Assembly (NCBI GenBank): GCA_019115805.1
Contig: DXCW01000173.1
Coordinates: 1-64,000 of the forward strand
Reading direction: 5' to 3'
Length of the DNA: 64,000 bases
Source: Candidatus Sphingobacterium stercorigallinarum
GTDB lineage: Bacteria > Bacteroidota > Bacteroidia > Sphingobacteriales > Sphingobacteriaceae
The position numbers and the translations under genes are program-made. A model generated the notes under the pieces. The model had not been told where the DNA came from. It was given only the letters and a program-made list of their open reading frames with translations, and made no database searches. Below are positions 29,067 through 49,891 of this stretch, piece by piece (the first letter of the stretch is position 1; every line of letters begins with the position of its first letter).

Positions 29067-30029
29067 TTAAAGTGAGTTCTTGCGCGGTGTGACAGGCGTC
29101 TGACCATAACGCGAAAGAAAATCTTCATAGGCAATTTTGATTCCCTCATCTAGGTTTGTGCTGGCTTTCCAACCCAAGGTATGTAGCCGAGTTACATCCA
29201 TCAATTTCCGAGGCGTTCCATCGGGCTTTTCCCGATCAAATTCCAATGCTCCTGGATAGCGAACAATTTCTTTGATGCGTTCAGCTAAATCCCGAATACG
29301 AATATCGGTGCCTACACCGATGTTGATGAATTGTGTTTCGCTGTAATGCTGCATCAAAAATACACAGGCGTCTGCCAGATCGTCCGCAAAAAGAAATTCC
29401 CGGAGCGGTTCTCCAGAGCCCCAAACTTTAACAGAAGGTTGATTGTTAATCTTTGCTTCATGCATTTTTCGAATCAATGCCGGGAGTACATGTGAGTTTT
29501 CCGGATGGTAATTGTCATTGATCCCATATAAGTTAGTCGGCATAACGGAAATAAAATCATCGCCATATTGCTGACGGTAGGACTCACACATTTTTATCCC
29601 CGCTATTTTCGCAATCGCATACGGCTCATTAGTGGGCTCCAAGGGCCCTGTGAGCAAGGCATCTTCTCGCAGTGGTTGGGGCGCGTGTTTTGGATAAATA
29701 CAGCTCGATCCCAAAAACATGAGTTTGCGTACTTTTACCTGATGAGCGAAATGAATGACATTATTTTGAATACTCAGGTTCTCATACAAAAACTCACCGC
29801 GATAGGTGTTATTGGCTAGAATCCCACCAACTTTCGCTGCGGCTAGGAAAACGAACTCTGGTTTTTCTTCGAGAAAAAAATCCTGAACGGATTGCTGATC
29901 CCGCAGATCCAGCTCTTTTGACGTACGAGTAATCAGGTTGTCATACCCCAAGCTTTTCAGCTTTCTAAGAATAGCCGACCCCACCATTCCGCGGTGCCCG
30001 GCTACATATATTTTTGCGTTTTTTTCCAC
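29067..30029 (-). CDS. fcl: GDP-L-fucose synthase
   Basis: [68 protein letters not shown]. Confidence 0.95.
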
Positions 30030-41157: not shown

Positions 41158-41901
41158 ATGTTAAAAGAAGAAAGACAAGCGTACATTATTCATCAAATCA
41201 ACATTCACAATAAAGTGCTCTCCTCTGATTTGAGCGCGCAGCTGAACGTATCGGAAGACACTATTCGTCGAGACCTAAATGAACTTGCAGAGAGTGGTAA
41301 AGTGTTGAAGGTATACGGCGGCGCTCTATCACGATCATTTCAATATCCTTTCCAAGAAGGAAATGTATATGCCAAAGAAGCAAAAAAGGAAATTGCTTCC
41401 AAGGCTATAGTGCTGATAAAAAGTGGGATGACTGTTTTGGTTGGGGGCGGAACTAGCATGATAGAATTGGCTCGAGTCGTCCCGAAAGATGTGCAATGCA
41501 CTTTCTTTACGATTAGTCCGCTAGTGGCCTTGGAGCTGGCGGAAAAAGAGAATTTAGAGGTTATTCTTCTGGGAGGGAAATTGTCGAGAAACACCAACGT
41601 GGTATCGGGCTCCCAAGTAATCAATGAGTTGTCAGAAATTAAGGTCGATCTTTGTCTGCTCGGGACCAATAGTCTCTCCGTGGAGGAGGGGATCACGGAT
41701 TCCGACTGGGAAGTTATCCAGATTAAGAAAGCGATGATCAAGTCCTGTCACAAGCTAGGAGTCTTGAGTATCGTCGAGAAGCTGAATTCTAACCAGAAAC
41801 TACGGGTTTGCCCCTTAAAGGATATCAGCTATCTCATCACCGATCTAGACCCCAAACATCCAGGTTTGACGGAATTCGCGAAACACATTACGGTGATTTG
41901 A
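41158..41901 (+). CDS. DeoR/GlpR family transcriptional regulator
   Basis: LKEERQAYIIHQINIHNKVLSSDLSAQLNVSEDTIRRDLNELAESGKVLKVYGGAL...VLVGGGTSMIELARVV. Confidence 0.93.
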   Translation: MLKEERQAYIIHQINIHNKVLSSDLSAQLNVSEDTIRRDLNELAESGKVLKVYGGALSRSFQYPFQEGNVYAKEAKKEIASKAIVLIKSGMTVLVGGGTSMIELARVVPKDVQCTFFTISPLVALELAEKENLEVILLGGKLSRNTNVVSGSQVINELSEIKVDLCLLGTNSLSVEEGITDSDWEVIQIKKAMIKSCHKLGVLSIVEKLNSNQKLRVCPLKDISYLITDLDPKHPGLTEFAKHITVI

Positions 41902-43000
41902 TTTTCATTTGTTGCTGTATCGCACGCTCTACTACCCACCGGTTACTTTCAATAAATAAGTTGTGCCAAAGCATGCTGTAATCAATGGCTCTATTGAATG
42001 CCAGGCGCTTTAGATGCTTGACCAATCGTTTAAGCGTATAGCGTGGTATTCCGTTGAATGGGGCAGCATAATATGAGGAATGGTGTTTTTCCCACTCTAT
42101 TACAGCCATCTCGTTTATACGGCGCAAGTAATTGGTGTCATTGATCTGCGCATTGAGATCTTGTAGGTAATTGCGAGATCTTTGCTCATCCCATAGGGCT
42201 AAGGTAGAAGCATTTTTATCGACAACATAGAGTTGATGGTCAGTTAACATCCCCTCTTCAAGCACGAGCTCGAGGATTCCGCCACAGTTCCACCCTTTAG
42301 GCTGGGACTTTGCATCAAAGTAAAAATTACCTAAACTGTAATAAATGGGCTTCCCTTGATAAATTTCCATCCCTTGTAAACAGTGAGGATGATGCCCGAT
42401 AACAATATCGGCACCCGCATCGATGAGTTTACGGTATCGATCTCGCCATTCGGGTAAAGGGATATTCCACAGCTCAACCCCCGCGTGAACCTGGATAATT
42501 AAATAGTCGACTTTCTCCGCGTAATTTTCTATGTCTTTGTTTACACGTGGGTGATTTATCCAGGCGTGTCCGGTCTCGCGCTCGCCATTTAGGGCGCTAT
42601 ATCCATTCTCTCCATAGGCTAATAGCCCATATCGGACCCCTCCGAGTTCGGTTGTTTGTAGCCCATAGGCTTCATCAACTGTCCCCACACCCAGAACCAG
42701 CTGTTCTTCTAGTGCGCTGACGGTCTGATTTAACGCTTCCGGCCCGAAGTCGCCAATGTGATTGTTGGCCAATGAGAAACAATTAAAACCGATGTCTTTT
42801 AACCAGACAGGGGCTGAACGATGTTGTTGAACCAAGGGGCCGGTCTTCAAAATCGCAGTACCGGATCCCTCTAGCGGCGCCTCAAAATTACAACACAGCA
42901 GGTCGGATCGGGAAAATAGCGCTTGCAGCGCGCTATCGATTTTCGGCTGATTTAGGCACACGACGTCGCCGACAAATTGAAGTCTATGAATGTTTGACAT
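41888..43000 (-). CDS. CapA family protein (poly-gamma-glutamate capsule-type metallophosphatase fold)
   Basis: FVGDVVCLN, CNFEAPLEG, CFSLANNHIGDFG, VDYLIIQVHAGVE, DAGADIVIGHHPHCLQGMEIYQGKPIYYSLGNFYFD. Confidence 0.9.
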   Translation of the reverse strand: MSNIHRLQFVGDVVCLNQPKIDSALQALFSRSDLLCCNFEAPLEGSGTAILKTGPLVQQHRSAPVWLKDIGFNCFSLANNHIGDFGPEALNQTVSALEEQLVLGVGTVDEAYGLQTTELGGVRYGLLAYGENGYSALNGERETGHAWINHPRVNKDIENYAEKVDYLIIQVHAGVELWNIPLPEWRDRYRKLIDAGADIVIGHHPHCLQGMEIYQGKPIYYSLGNFYFDAKSQPKGWNCGGILELVLEEGMLTDHQLYVVDKNASTLALWDEQRSRNYLQDLNAQINDTNYLRRINEMAVIEWEKHHSSYYAAPFNGIPRYTLKRLVKHLKRLAFNRAIDYSMLWHNLFIESNRWVVERAIQQQMKIKSP

Positions 43001-44360
43001 AGGCGTCTCTTTTTAATAACAACTGTTCTATAGGTTTGATGGTGATATAGGCGAAATAAGCGTCTATGAGCGTGTTTTTTGCGCCTAAGAGTTTTAAAAC
43101 CCCTTTTATTTTGGGCGTGTGCATCAGTCGTTGGAATACGCGTTCGCTAGGACCAATATACTGAATTTTGCGGTTAATCCATTCGAGATAAGATGACTCG
43201 AAATGTTCCCGCAAAATGTCGGTTCGCAGTGGTGCTAATTTTTCATTGGTAAGGGCTATATAATTCAGTGAATTTTGGTATGTAAACGCATGTTTTTCCT
43301 CTTCGAAAAGCAAGTTCTGTCGCCGAAAGTAGTCCCTCTGCCAATGCCGATCGCTTCTTCTATTTTGAGGTAATCTCAACATGGAAAGTGCCAGGTTTTC
43401 ATCTAAAAATGGAGAATATCCGGGGTAGCCTATTTTTTCTGGAACGGTGATCAAATATTGAAGCATCATCATTTTGGTTCGCATTGCAGTAATTATTCTA
43501 AATTCCGGTATTTTAAGGGCATCTTTTTGAGACTCCCAAACGGACTCGACCAGGGAACGGTAGTCTGGCTTGATGGCGCGCTTACTATCGGCACTCATAC
43601 CGTGGGTATGCCCTAATTTTCGATAGTGTGTCGGGGCGTTTATTTCGGGCACGTGAACAGCTCCTGCCCAAGCGTCGCCGATGATACCGCTTAATAATCG
43701 CATCGGATTGTTGTCTTCAGCAGCTTGTATTTTGTCATAAAACTCCATATGGTAGGTGCCGGATGCAGCTACCGCCGGCCCAAACTGTTTATACCACTGA
43801 TCCATATACACGTTGAATACGCCAAGATCGATGCGGCTCCATTGCGTTCCGAGTCGTTGCGATAAGAGGCCGGCATAAACCGATTCTCTAGATTTGTGTT
43901 GATCAGCTGAAGTTCCGTACGTATAGGCGTGAATACGTGATTTGTCCTCCAACAGCACGTTTAGGAGGCGAGAGTCAAAACCACCGCTCGTTGGAATTAG
44001 GATGTCTTCGGTGAAGCTGTTGGCCCAATTGTTTACCGCGGACTTGAGCCCGTCCATTACCTCATGCTCCGAAGTCGATGGGCCGTTAAGCAAATCGAGC
44101 GTTTGATCCCTTTCTTTAAGAACTCGAAGGCCCTCACTGTCTTTGTGAAGGCTTTGATAAGGGAGGAGATATTCAACGTCTTTCACCGGGGTTCGGCCGA
44201 ATACGCTATAACCGTAATCGAGATAAGCCGCCAGACCTTGAGCGTCGATTTCGAGATTGTTATAATCAATAACCTCATGAATATCCTCGCTATACTGCTG
44301 CGTCTTTTTGTTGAAGAAAAGGGTTCTGTAGCCCACCCAGTTTCCTTTTGCTACTTCCAT
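42984..44360 (-). CDS. Asparagine-synthase-like protein lacking a full glutaminase domain
   Basis: PP-loop ILIPTSGGFDSRLLNVLL about 120 residues from the start; GYPGYSPFLDENLALSMLRLP resembles Asn-synthase C-terminal region. No N-terminal Cys2 glutaminase. Confidence 0.75.
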   Translation of the reverse strand: MEVAKGNWVGYRTLFFNKKTQQYSEDIHEVIDYNNLEIDAQGLAAYLDYGYSVFGRTPVKDVEYLLPYQSLHKDSEGLRVLKERDQTLDLLNGPSTSEHEVMDGLKSAVNNWANSFTEDILIPTSGGFDSRLLNVLLEDKSRIHAYTYGTSADQHKSRESVYAGLLSQRLGTQWSRIDLGVFNVYMDQWYKQFGPAVAASGTYHMEFYDKIQAAEDNNPMRLLSGIIGDAWAGAVHVPEINAPTHYRKLGHTHGMSADSKRAIKPDYRSLVESVWESQKDALKIPEFRIITAMRTKMMMLQYLITVPEKIGYPGYSPFLDENLALSMLRLPQNRRSDRHWQRDYFRRQNLLFEEEKHAFTYQNSLNYIALTNEKLAPLRTDILREHFESSYLEWINRKIQYIGPSERVFQRLMHTPKIKGVLKLLGAKNTLIDAYFAYITIKPIEQLLLKRDAYVKHS

Positions 44361-45814
44361 TAATGCGATTTAGAAAATTTGCGACTTAAGAGTTCCACGA
44401 TCTCTAGCCAGATCTCGTTTTTTATAAACTGATTGAAGATGATGTATACCATCACGAATATAAGGCTTTGCGTTGTGATTAGTGACAGTTCATGGGAAAC
44501 CAAACTAAACTGCTGGGGAATAGAAGCGATCGCCGCTGAAAATAGGCTGATGAAGAAGGCGGGGAAAATATCTTTCACTTGCTTAACTATGCCGTATCCG
44601 TAGACGCCTTGGCTGATGATCGCTGCACACAGAAAACAGGCAATTCGGAGTCCGATCTGTCCATATATGACTGCAAACAATCCGTGCTTATAGGTGAAAG
44701 CCAGTAAAACGAGCGCAAATGCCCACTTGATTATTTCCAGGCGTAAAGATAAGCCCGAACGCCCTTTGATATTTAAAAAGTTGACATTCATATCGCCCAA
44801 GGAGATAAACAGGCCGGCAAAGCAGAGCAACTGAAAGTAGGGAACGGATGATTGCCAGGTCTCGGTCAAGAAAAATGAAAAACTAGGCTCAGCGATCGCG
44901 ATAGCTAAAAAACTAGCGGGGAAAAGAACGAAAGCAAGCGTCCGCATCGTCTTTCTGCAAGCGTTCAGGAAACGCGGACGGTCATCCTGAATTGGCGTCA
45001 GCGTCGATAATGTCGTGCCTTGAATGATCGATGAGATCAGGAGATTGGGTGTTTCCCCCCATTTGTTAGCTTGATAGTAGTAACCGGTATTGCTGATCGA
45101 AAAATGAGACCCTATAAACGAATAGTAAAAGGGAGACAATGCTTTTCCCATAATATTTGACGCAATGAATGATAAGGAAAACGATAGATGGCGCTTGAGT
45201 GTTTGATAATGTATTCGGAAATCCATTTTCCAATCCCCCCAAAGCCAGAGCAAGACGGTCCGAAAAAAAGCGTATAGCACCGGCTGTAGAATTAGCGGCC
45301 AGACTCCATACTCCAAGTAGGCTAGTGTAATCACAATAATGCCCGTAATGAAGATAGCTATGACGTTGATCCGAGCCGTAATTTGAAATTGAAAATTCTT
45401 CAATATCTTGACATATTGGACGATCCCGAAGGCATGAATCAGAATTTGTAAAAACATGACCCGAGCGTATAGTGCCAAATGTTCAATGCCGTTATGATGC
45501 TCGATAAGTGGTGCGGCAAAAAACAGCAGGGCGTACAGGAATAAGCTTGCCGTTAAATTAAAAACAAACATACTCGAGTAATCTCGTTCGCCCACCACCC
45601 TTGTGCGAACTAAGGAGGTGGCCAATCCACTGTCAATAAAGGCTGTAGCGACCGTAGAGAAGATCAATAGGATACCGATTACACCAAAATCTTCTGGACT
45701 CAATATCCGCGCCGTGACGATGCCTACAATGGTGACAATACCTTGATTACCGAATCGGTCAATCGCATTCCAAAAAAGCCCGTTAATAGTGATGTTCTTC
45801 GTGTTTTCGCTCAT
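44360..45814 (-). CDS. Lipopolysaccharide/polysaccharide flippase (MOP superfamily, Wzx-like)
   Basis: About 12 TM segments; NGLFWNAIDRFGNQGIVTIVGIVTARILSPEDFGVIGILLIFSTVATAFIDSGLATSLVR. Likely start MSENTKN within ORF 44360..45883. Confidence 0.9.
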   Translation of the reverse strand: MSENTKNITINGLFWNAIDRFGNQGIVTIVGIVTARILSPEDFGVIGILLIFSTVATAFIDSGLATSLVRTRVVGERDYSSMFVFNLTASLFLYALLFFAAPLIEHHNGIEHLALYARVMFLQILIHAFGIVQYVKILKNFQFQITARINVIAIFITGIIVITLAYLEYGVWPLILQPVLYAFFRTVLLWLWGDWKMDFRIHYQTLKRHLSFSLSFIASNIMGKALSPFYYSFIGSHFSISNTGYYYQANKWGETPNLLISSIIQGTTLSTLTPIQDDRPRFLNACRKTMRTLAFVLFPASFLAIAIAEPSFSFFLTETWQSSVPYFQLLCFAGLFISLGDMNVNFLNIKGRSGLSLRLEIIKWAFALVLLAFTYKHGLFAVIYGQIGLRIACFLCAAIISQGVYGYGIVKQVKDIFPAFFISLFSAAIASIPQQFSLVSHELSLITTQSLIFVMVYIIFNQFIKNEIWLEIVELLSRKFSKSH

Positions 45815-46062
45815 GTAGCTCTCGAACTTATCTGTTTCATGTTTCGCTGACTCGAAATGTGGTTGGGCGCCCACTCTTTTCAAAGGAGTGGTGCTGATCT
45901 CCCTCGCCGTCGTTTAAGAATGGAAACGTCCCATTCATTACCTTCAAAGATAGCTGCTGAACCACAAATTTAGGAAAGTTTCTTTAGGGCACGGGAAAAA
46001 AGCATTATACTTCATACATTGAAATTAAACGTCTATATTTATTTTGGATTAGAATTGTAAAT

Positions 46063-46986
46063 ATGCTAGCACCCATCGCTCTTTTCGTTTATAACCGACC
46101 GGTACACACCCGTAAAACGCTTACTGCATTAGAAAAGAATACTTTGGCGGAGCAATCTGAGATTTATATTTTTTCTGATGGAGCAAAGACTGCGGCGGAT
46201 ATTGATTCGGTGAATCAAGTGCGATCCATTATTAGAGAGCCATGGAAATTTAAACATATTTATATCGTCGAACGGGCGCACAATAAAGGATTAGCCGAAA
46301 GTGTTATTGACGGGGTCACTCAAGTCGTTGAAAAGCATGGACGTATCGTGGTGTTGGAGGACGATCTCCAGACTGCTCCTTATGCGTTGAAATATTTTAA
46401 TGACGCATTAAATCACTACCAAGATCAAGAGCAAGTCATGGAAATATCCGGTTATATGTATCCGGTTGAGAAACAGAAAAAGCTGCCACCTTCTTTTTTC
46501 TTTCGTGTAGCGAATAGCTGGGGTTGGGCTACTTGGGATCGAGCTTGGGAAAAATTTAATCCGGATATTGAAGAGTTAACAAAGAAATTTTCAAGAAAAC
46601 AAAGAAAGGCCTTTGCTGTGGATGGAACCGAGAATTTTTGGAAGCAAGTCAAACAGTATAAAGCAGGTAAAATTAATTCCTGGGCGATTCGTTGGTATCT
46701 GTCTGTTTTTCGGCACGACGGTTTGGTTCTATATCCACGATACTCTATGATACAGAATATCGGAACGGATGGATCAGGTACGCATTCAGATGTTGATGCG
46801 GTGTATCGTACACGCTTAGCAGATAAACCGGTCAGGCGTTTTCCGAAACGAATACAAGAGGATTCTCGCGCCTTAGAACAAATCAAACATTTCTATAAAA
46901 ATCGCAAGGGTAACTTTTTCGAACGGCTGGCTCGATATCTGGAAAAAGTGATTCGAAAGCGAAAGTTTCGGGCTTTAAAGCGTTAA
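46063..46986 (+). CDS. Glycosyltransferase family protein (GT2-like)
   Basis: MLAPIALFVYNRPVHTRKTLTALEKNTLAEQSEIYIFSDGAK...RIVVLEDDLQTAPYALKYFNDAL...NSWGWATWDRAWE. Confidence 0.87.
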   Translation: MLAPIALFVYNRPVHTRKTLTALEKNTLAEQSEIYIFSDGAKTAADIDSVNQVRSIIREPWKFKHIYIVERAHNKGLAESVIDGVTQVVEKHGRIVVLEDDLQTAPYALKYFNDALNHYQDQEQVMEISGYMYPVEKQKKLPPSFFFRVANSWGWATWDRAWEKFNPDIEELTKKFSRKQRKAFAVDGTENFWKQVKQYKAGKINSWAIRWYLSVFRHDGLVLYPRYSMIQNIGTDGSGTHSDVDAVYRTRLADKPVRRFPKRIQEDSRALEQIKHFYKNRKGNFFERLARYLEKVIRKRKFRALKR

Positions 46987-47681
46987 TTTTGTGAGTCTTT
47001 GAAAAACAATGTGCGTTTTGTTTTTGCAATGAGTTTATATTCTTGCGCGCGCATGAACCGATAAATTTGTGATGCATGTAGGGCGTTAAAATCGATCTCT
47101 TCTTCCACCAATACAAATTGAGGTCGAAACCGTTCCCAATCATTTGATTGGAGTACGATTAAATCAAACCCCTCGGCGTCGACTGACATGAAATCGATAT
47201 GGATGTCCCGAGGAAGGTTGTTTTTGAGTATATCTCGTAGAGGAAGCGTGGGAATTGGAATCGTCTTAATCAAGTGGTACCGCGAGTGAAGGCCGTCTCT
47301 TTTTCTTGAGACCTCCTGACAAAATCCGTTGAGCGCAGGTTCATTGAAACAGTAATAGGTAAGCGTTTGTGGTTGCGCACTAACGCCCAAGTTTAGATTG
47401 GTGTCGTTTTTTCGAAACAGCTGAAACCACTTCATGGCGTGAGGTGAAGGCTCAATGTTAATCCCCCTCCAACCTTTCTGGTAAAAGTACATCGTATTGG
47501 AAAACCGGTACGGGTGGTGGGCGCCCACGTCGATATAGAATCCTCTGTATCGCTTTTTTCCCTCGTAAAATCCCCGGAGAACCATATCTTCACCTTCTTG
47601 CGAATACGAATACGCGTGTCGGAACTTGTCGATAGGTAGATACTTCAGAATGAGCTGTTTAATCTTGGTCAGCTTGCTCAT
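46983..47681 (-). CDS. FkbM family methyltransferase
   Basis: YSQEGEDMVLRGFYEGKKRYRGFYIDVGAHHPYRFSNTMYFYQKGWRGINIEPSPHAM...HIDFMSVDAEGFDLIVLQSNDW. Confidence 0.9.
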   Translation of the reverse strand: MSKLTKIKQLILKYLPIDKFRHAYSYSQEGEDMVLRGFYEGKKRYRGFYIDVGAHHPYRFSNTMYFYQKGWRGINIEPSPHAMKWFQLFRKNDTNLNLGVSAQPQTLTYYCFNEPALNGFCQEVSRKRDGLHSRYHLIKTIPIPTLPLRDILKNNLPRDIHIDFMSVDAEGFDLIVLQSNDWERFRPQFVLVEEEIDFNALHASQIYRFMRAQEYKLIAKTKRTLFFKDSQN

Positions 47682-47845
47682 GGTTTATTTATCTTGATGT
47701 ATCAAACGGTGTAGTGCAAAAAAAATGCCGGTTTAAAAAATGGATGGATCTGACCTGGAGCGCAACGGGTGTTCCGATTATCACCGGTGAATTAATAGTT
47801 ACCCATAGTGGTTATTGTCAGTTATTCGCTATTTTTGCGGTTGCA

Positions 47846-48619
47846 ATGAATTCAAAACCCCGCAGTGCACAATGTCCGAGAGTCTCGATTATTACCGTAG
47901 TGTATAATAATGAGGCGGATATTCGCTATACTTTAGACTCAGTCGCAAAGCAAACCTACGCCGATAAAGAATATATCGTGATTGACGGCGGATCAACCGA
48001 TGGTACATTACCATTAATAGAGCGTTATGGTAACGCCATAACACGGTTGGTGTCGGAACCTGATCGTGGGATTTACGACGCGATGAATAAGGGATTGGCT
48101 TTGGCGCGTGGTGAATATGTGTTGTTTCTGAATTCGGGGGATGAATTTTTTGACGAGGGAACCTTGGCACATATTTTTACTCGAACCGATAATGCCGATA
48201 TCTATTATGGAGAAACTAAACTTGTTGACTCACATAGAAAGATTATTGGAGATCGCCGGCACGCTGCACCTGCGACGTTTAATTGGAAATCGTTCAAATA
48301 TGGGATGAATATTTGTCATCAGGCCATTTATGTTAAGAGAGCCATTGCAGAGCCTTACGATCTTCAATATCAACTTAGTGCGGATATCGATTGGGTGATT
48401 CGAGCGGCTAAGAAGGCAAGCACGATTGTCAATGTCGATGCTTACGTGGCTAAATACCTCGTGGGAGGGGTTTCTCAAAAAAGGTTGAGACAAAGCCTTA
48501 AAGAAAGATATCGTATCCTGAGTACCTATTACGGCGTACTGCCGAACTTGTTTAATCATTTAGTGATGGCTTGGAGACTGGTGAACTACCGACTACGACA
48601 TGGGAAAACAAGAGACTGA
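47846..48619 (+). CDS. Glycosyltransferase family 2 protein
   Basis: PRVSIITVVYNNEADIRYTLDSVAKQTYADKEYIVIDGGSTDGT...SEPDRGIYDAMNKGLALARGEYVLFLNSGDEF. Start moved from 47714 to 47846. Confidence 0.93.
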   Translation: MNSKPRSAQCPRVSIITVVYNNEADIRYTLDSVAKQTYADKEYIVIDGGSTDGTLPLIERYGNAITRLVSEPDRGIYDAMNKGLALARGEYVLFLNSGDEFFDEGTLAHIFTRTDNADIYYGETKLVDSHRKIIGDRRHAAPATFNWKSFKYGMNICHQAIYVKRAIAEPYDLQYQLSADIDWVIRAAKKASTIVNVDAYVAKYLVGGVSQKRLRQSLKERYRILSTYYGVLPNLFNHLVMAWRLVNYRLRHGKTRD

Positions 48620-48836: not shown

Positions 48837-48919
48837 GTCACCCACCATTCTACGGTCGATTTTTTTTATATTTGCCAAATATTTTAACATTAAACGCCGT
48901 TTGCAGCGGTATCAATGAT

Positions 48920-49891
48920 ATGAAAACATTTCAAACTCTGCTGTACTATTGCTACAGCCCTATCGATAATGCAGAGAAATTTGCAGAAGATCATCTCGCA
49001 TTTTGTAAATCACTAGGTCTTGTCGGGCGTATTATTGTGGCGGAGGAAGGCCTCAATGGGACTGTCTCAGGCACAAAGGAAGCTTGTCAGGATTATATGA
49101 ATGCCATACACGCCGACCCGCGATTCGCAAAGACAGATTTTAAGATTGATGAGGTAGAAGAACCATCGTTTATTAAAATGCATTGCCGGTATAAGGCAGA
49201 AATTGTGCATTCGGGCCTTCGCGATCCCTCGCTAATTGACCCCACTCGTGAAACAGGTGTTCACCTGGAGCCTGAAGAGTTCCTAAAGATGAAAGACCAA
49301 GAAGATGTCGTAGTTTTAGATGTGCGTTCTAACTACGAACATAGTGTGGGCCGATTCAAAAATGCGTTAACATTGGATATAGAGAACTTTCGGGAGTTCC
49401 CTGAAAAAGTGAAAGAATTGGAGTCCTTAAAAGGAAAGAAGATTCTAACCTATTGCACAGGAGGTATCAAATGTGAAAAAGCATCCGCATTGCTCTTGAA
49501 AGAAGGGTTCAAAGAGGTGTATCAATTGCACGGAGGTATTATTAAGTACGGTAAAGAAGTTGGGGGAAAGGATTTTGAAGGGGACTGTTACGTATTTGAT
49601 AATCGGGTCACAGTGCCCGTGAATGCGGTGAACCCGACCGTTATCTCTACGTGTAGAAACTGTGGCAAAGTGACCGCTAAAATGATCAATTGCGCTAATC
49701 CTGTTTGTAATGAGCATTTCACCCAATGCGATGAATGTGGACAGCAGATGGATGGCTGTTGTTCCGCAGCTTGTATGGAGCATCCGCGTAAGCGTGTCTA
49801 CGACGGGACCGGCTATTATGTGAAAGTTCCTCAACCGGTAAATGTGGAAAAGATTTCCAAGCGCAAGCATAAAAAAATGGTAAAAAATTAA
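48920..49891 (+). CDS. trhO: Rhodanese-domain tRNA uridine hydroxylase (TrhO/YceA-like)
   Basis: ILTYCTGGIKCEKASALLLKEGFKEVYQLHGGIIKYGKEVGG; N-terminal acylphosphatase-like region; Cys-rich C-terminus. Confidence 0.92.
   Translation: MKTFQTLLYYCYSPIDNAEKFAEDHLAFCKSLGLVGRIIVAEEGLNGTVSGTKEACQDYMNAIHADPRFAKTDFKIDEVEEPSFIKMHCRYKAEIVHSGLRDPSLIDPTRETGVHLEPEEFLKMKDQEDVVVLDVRSNYEHSVGRFKNALTLDIENFREFPEKVKELESLKGKKILTYCTGGIKCEKASALLLKEGFKEVYQLHGGIIKYGKEVGGKDFEGDCYVFDNRVTVPVNAVNPTVISTCRNCGKVTAKMINCANPVCNEHFTQCDECGQQMDGCCSAACMEHPRKRVYDGTGYYVKVPQPVNVEKISKRKHKKMVKN

Follow-up and report, generated by a model that had tools for sequence, protein, structure and literature searches.

A swapped flippase cassette with an AsnL–CapA pair in a candidate protein O-glycosylation locus of Sphingobacterium

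The analysed window, a 64,000-nucleotide stretch of Candidatus Sphingobacterium stercorigallinarum DNA, contained a glycan block of six genes (capA-asnL-wzx, GTa, fkbM and GT2) between deoR and trhO, which we interpret with moderate confidence as a protein O-glycosylation locus with an AsnL-dependent amide modification of the lipid-linked glycan. The slot that holds this block swaps its flippase cassette, of which at least four types were found in the genus, and keeps GTa and GT2 constant. Since the capA-asnL-wzx trio occupies the slot of the lfg flippase, and since AsnL–CapA also lies in glycan clusters of distant bacteria, the pair probably decorates surface sugars with an unusual chemical group.

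The trio forms an operon on the minus strand, consisting of a wzx-like MOP flippase gene (44360..45814, ATG at 45814, 484 aa; PF13440, NF058658), asnL for a glutaminase-less asparagine-synthetase-like PP-loop enzyme (42984..44360, 458 aa; PF00733, Foldseek) and capA for a CapA-like calcineurin-fold metalloenzyme (41888..43000, 370 aa; PF09587, Foldseek). The preliminary description regarded the three genes as translationally coupled, and direct reading agrees with it: in TAATG the last base of the flippase TAA, at 44360, is also the first base of the asnL ATG, and the asnL end (42984) and capA start (43000) give an overlap of 17 nt. Close or overlapping junctions could also be found in most other Sphingobacterium loci examined, with spacings of -14 to +12 nt for wzx-asnL and -23 to +1 nt for asnL-capA, indicating that the coupling is not due to chance. 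Although the trio was thus borne out, that description left out its surroundings. The 3′ end of capA runs toward the convergent deoR regulator (41158..41901, plus strand; PF00455/PF08220), the left border of the slot, and beyond a divergent intergenic region of 248 bp between wzx and GTa (45815..46062, by direct reading) the same block goes on with GTa (46063..46986, plus), fkbM (46983..47681, minus) and GT2 (47846..48619, plus). The right border is trhO, encoding a tRNA U34 hydroxylase (48872..49891, plus), assigned by synteny and by NF001133 (277 bits, cut-off 170). In the divergent region, TAAATTTG at 45972-45965 (minus strand) weakly resembles the Bacteroidota -7 box; the full Bacteroidota -33/-7 promoter pattern was absent from 45815..46062 and occurred elsewhere in the window at chance frequency. 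The GC content of the trio (45.0%, against 44.2% for the window) gave no support to a recent foreign island, although on a longer time scale the cassette has clearly been mobile in the genus.

The order deoR-[cassette]-GTa-GT2-trhO was common to species with AsnL and species with an lfg-type Wzx, and deoR was 62-89% identical in relatives. Among 94 Sphingobacterium genomes, the flippase cassette in this slot carried an lfg-type Wzx in 45 and asnL in 31, never both; of the 18 genomes with neither, 7 and 9 had one or the other of two additional cassette types at this position, and 2 were unresolved. CapA was present in 28 genomes, all 28 of them AsnL-positive. On the tree of flanking genes the AsnL loci did not form one clade (AU p 5e-7), and at least 14 cassette changes were counted, in six of which the asnL state was gained or lost. 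Fisher tests also gave tiny p values, which ignore relatedness, so that the tree-based result is the one to trust. The GTa tree tracked the flanking genes, not the cassette type.

This arrangement resembles lfg of B. fragilis and the Tannerella forsythia O-glycosylation cluster, whose products are attached to proteins at D-S/T motifs, in its single Wzx, variable middle genes, methyltransferase and conserved glycosyltransferases, the last being a GT2 of the BF4306 type; moreover, the same slot holds the lfg-type Wzx in the 45 sister genomes. However, the borders of the locus are deoR and trhO throughout the genus, not metG, with which lfg of Bacteroides species is described to start and which was not found in the window. 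The trio also lies on the opposite strand, its Wzx comes from another lineage, and AsnL–CapA is present. No GT4 gtfL-like gene was found beside GT2 in the six-gene block, where GTa stands instead; the GT4 (k33) occurred in other genera and in loci L153/L154. Taken together, a slot that is conserved, glycosyltransferases of lfg type and the swapping of cassettes argue for protein O-glycosylation over a capsule pathway that stands on its own. An amidated glycan had been proposed from the trio, and its glycan-assembly context holds, whereas the slot, the lfg-type glycosyltransferases and the exchange of cassettes had been missed.

The GT-A-like (GNT-I-like) GTa gave a weak PF03071 match, its orthologue PF00535/PF03071, and it was present in nearly all Sphingobacterium loci. 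The FkbM-family methyltransferase (PF05050, 8e-22) is the variable gene of the block, as in relatives its position varies or another methyltransferase-like gene takes its place. For GT2, assigned by homologue comparison, the listed open reading frame starts with GTG at 47714, and the ATG at 47846 was taken because it fits homologue lengths. GT2 was detected in 27/27 Sphingobacteriaceae genomes tested (54-69% identity) and shared 46-51% identity with the GT2 at the end of two metG-wzx lfg loci, the flippases of which pass the O-glycosylation cut-off. It is likely an orthologue of the L-fucosyltransferase BF4306/Tanf_01305/Phep_4048, the orthology to BF4306 being drawn from context. Phep_4048 has been assayed in vitro for fucosyltransferase activity, using GDP-L-fucose and pNP-hexoses. 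The GDP-L-fucose synthase encoded by fcl in the window (29067..30029, minus; NF047922, 501 bits, cut-off 500) would make the donor for GT2, and gmd lies elsewhere in the source genome (588 bits).

AsnL matched Pfam Asn_synthase barely above the cut-off (PF00733, 22.6 against 21 bits) and TIGR01536 at 28.6 bits (cut-off 267), and the latter match covered the model only from position 144 on; there was no match to any glutaminase family, consistent with its initial description as glutaminase-less. Because phmmer against PDB sequences returned no matches and the profile search matched nothing but a short segment of QueC at the PP-loop, structure comparison was needed. With the predicted structure (pLDDT 88), the top Foldseek matches were carbapenam synthetase (6e-9), TsnB9, AsnB and beta-lactam synthetase, and the modelled AsnL has a fold of the carbapenam/beta-lactam/asparagine synthetase type. 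The PP-loop SGGFDSR (residues 125-131) did not vary among 25 homologues from the genus and hardly varied in a set of 17 sequences from different phyla; LSGIIGDAWAG (223-233) was invariant in the genus. AsnL has Ile at the position of the conserved Glu of the AsnB SGE motif; with the missing glutaminase, this makes plain amidation with glutamine nitrogen unlikely.

Uronamides are known to be made by WbpS-type asparagine-synthase homologues (PMC7468200), a glycan with uronamides is produced from a locus carrying a putative asparagine synthase (PMC12407052), and the T. forsythia O-glycosylation cluster includes an asnB gene (PMC6120980). WbpS, WbqG, PGN_1234 and Tanf_01265 (asnB), AsnB-like amidotransferases of uronic-acid or nonulosonic-acid modification, share with AsnL the location of an asparagine-synthase-like enzyme in a glycan locus and the expected adenylation of a carboxylate. 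Nevertheless, AsnL belongs to a separate family with the signature SGIIGDAW, and it has no glutaminase domain, for which Tanf_01265 (605 aa) is long enough.

CapA was assigned to PGA_cap (PF09587, 2e-50), and its D12, E40, N80, H81, D84, H172, H204 and H206, none of which varied among 18 sequences from different phyla, correspond to the ligand set of calcineurin-like metallophosphoesterases (Asp, Glu, Asn-His, Asp, His, His-x-His). Its top Foldseek match was MslH (6e-20), followed by phosphatases and 5′-nucleotidases, while the MslH lasso epimerase model NF038314 was matched at 56.9 bits (cut-off 700). MslH, which performs acid/base chemistry beside a carboxylate (PMC10406935), belongs with the asparagine-synthetase-like cyclase MslC to the cluster of lasso peptide MS-271, so that the same two superfamilies are paired there, but the trio has a glycan context and phosphoesterase-like metal ligands in CapA. 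The one-metal ligand set of MslH is Glu44, Asn87, His259 and His261; CapA His204 corresponds to MslH Gly293, and CapA has Gly in place of His261. Retention of His204 without the equivalent of His261 indicates a two-metal phosphoesterase set, not the one-metal epimerase set. A lasso peptide cluster was rejected, as neither a precursor peptide nor lasso B proteins were recognised at the trio locus and AsnL–CapA is surrounded by glycosyltransferases.

Given these relatives, AsnL might instead join an amino acid or another amine to the glycan, with CapA tailoring or epimerising that substituent in the manner of MslH. We consider this possible yet rather unlikely: the absence of a glutaminase, the nearest folds (carbapenam synthetase and the hydroxyamidotransferase TsnB9) and the fact that MslH, the nearest solved relative of CapA, epimerises a peptide C-terminus are in its favour, whereas the two-metal phosphoesterase ligands of CapA do not fit the MslH set.

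Outside the genus, AsnL–CapA was found, mostly together with an adjoining GTa homologue, in glycan clusters of Pontibacter, Rheinheimera, Thioalkalivibrio, Butyrivibrio, Spirochaetes and Patescibacteria, CapA adjoining AsnL at 10 of 16 distant loci, so the pair is kept far beyond close relatives. Two findings named beforehand as grounds against the preliminary description, a trio confined to close relatives and a PP-loop protein without conserved ATP-binding residues, were thus both looked for and did not turn up. The distant clusters are EPS/O-antigen-like, and some of them include UDP-glucose dehydrogenase, gmd and fcl, which lends some weight to the alternative that the product of the Sphingobacterium block is a capsule, an EPS or an LPS O-antigen-like surface polysaccharide bearing the same AsnL-dependent amide instead of a protein glycan. 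The flippase (Polysacc_synt_3, PF13440, 2e-62) also speaks for this alternative, as it resembles TuaB/WzxC-type flippases and distant lfg Wzx about equally. Its top NCBIfam model was the O-glycosylation flippase NF058658, over the full length, and it was the sole match to this model at E<=1e-3 in the source genome, but its 266 bits were far under the cut-off of 720 and did not exceed the scores of capsule flippases from other genera; the lfg-type Oglyco_Wzx of sister species in the same slot reached 516-682 bits, likewise under the cut-off. Nevertheless, the constant glycosyltransferases of the slot are common to lfg-type loci, no Wzy polymerase or polysaccharide export gene was recognised in the six-gene block, and several trio genomes have other capsule-type flippases elsewhere, though not the source genome, which has one such flippase only. 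We consider a surface polysaccharide unlikely.

It is very unlikely that AsnL and CapA are degenerate remnants without chemistry beside a flippase that alone matters: CapA is missing in three species with AsnL, and asnL seems split over two frames in one genome, but the catalytic motifs are invariant or nearly so across phyla while the remaining sequence is only 32-45% identical. The poly-gamma-glutamate capsule link drawn from the CapA name has to be given up as the least probable reading, including a capsule decorated with this polymer: CapA matches PF09587 and, as in PgsBCA/CapBCA, lies beside an ATP-dependent amide-forming enzyme, but AsnL is from another ligase superfamily, CapB/PgsB Mur-ligase-like and CapC genes are missing among the annotated block genes, CapA has no hydrophobic N-terminal segment or membrane anchor and adjoins AsnL in distant glycan loci, and MslH is a CapA-family enzyme unrelated to this polymer. 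What remains of the initial interpretation is a MOP flippase coupled, in a glycan-assembly setting, to an enzyme of the type that adenylates and forms amides.

For the favoured protein O-glycosylation pathway, GTa and GT2, a probable L-fucosyltransferase, would assemble a lipid-linked oligosaccharide in the cytoplasm, which FkbM may methylate. AsnL would adenylate a carboxylate, most likely that of a glycan uronic acid, and ammonia or an amine could be coupled to form an amide, while cytosolic CapA might act on the same substituent before or after AsnL, hydrolysing a phosphoester or, with lower probability, acting as an epimerase. Once flipped by Wzx, the modified glycan would be transferred to proteins of the periplasm and the cell surface. 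Our best chemical guess is that an amide would be formed prior to flipping, either on a uronic acid or on an amino sugar; we infer proteins as the glycan destination, and likewise the acceptor and the CapA reaction. No Sphingobacterium O-glycan structure was found in the literature, nor did literature searches return a description of the AsnL–CapA pair with a flippase. We tentatively propose, as a plausible extension, that AsnL–CapA(–GTa) could be an undescribed, horizontally spread tailoring module, in which the glutaminase-less synthetase and the two-metal CapA enzyme jointly attach an amide-linked substituent to lipid-linked oligosaccharides, acting in Sphingobacterium as a swapped flippase cassette that diversifies the protein O-glycan between species.

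For the protein glycans of Bacteroidota, a review of the field lists the diversity and biosynthesis of the variable outer portion as open questions (PMC12871550). With constant borders and glycosyltransferases around at least four exchanged cassettes, the assignment of cassettes to glycans becomes testable between sister species, and the AsnL–CapA pair points to specific enzymes through which a new substituent of the glycan may be traced. Beyond that, our results suggest that CapA-family proteins serve as tailoring metalloenzymes beyond poly-gamma-glutamate synthesis.

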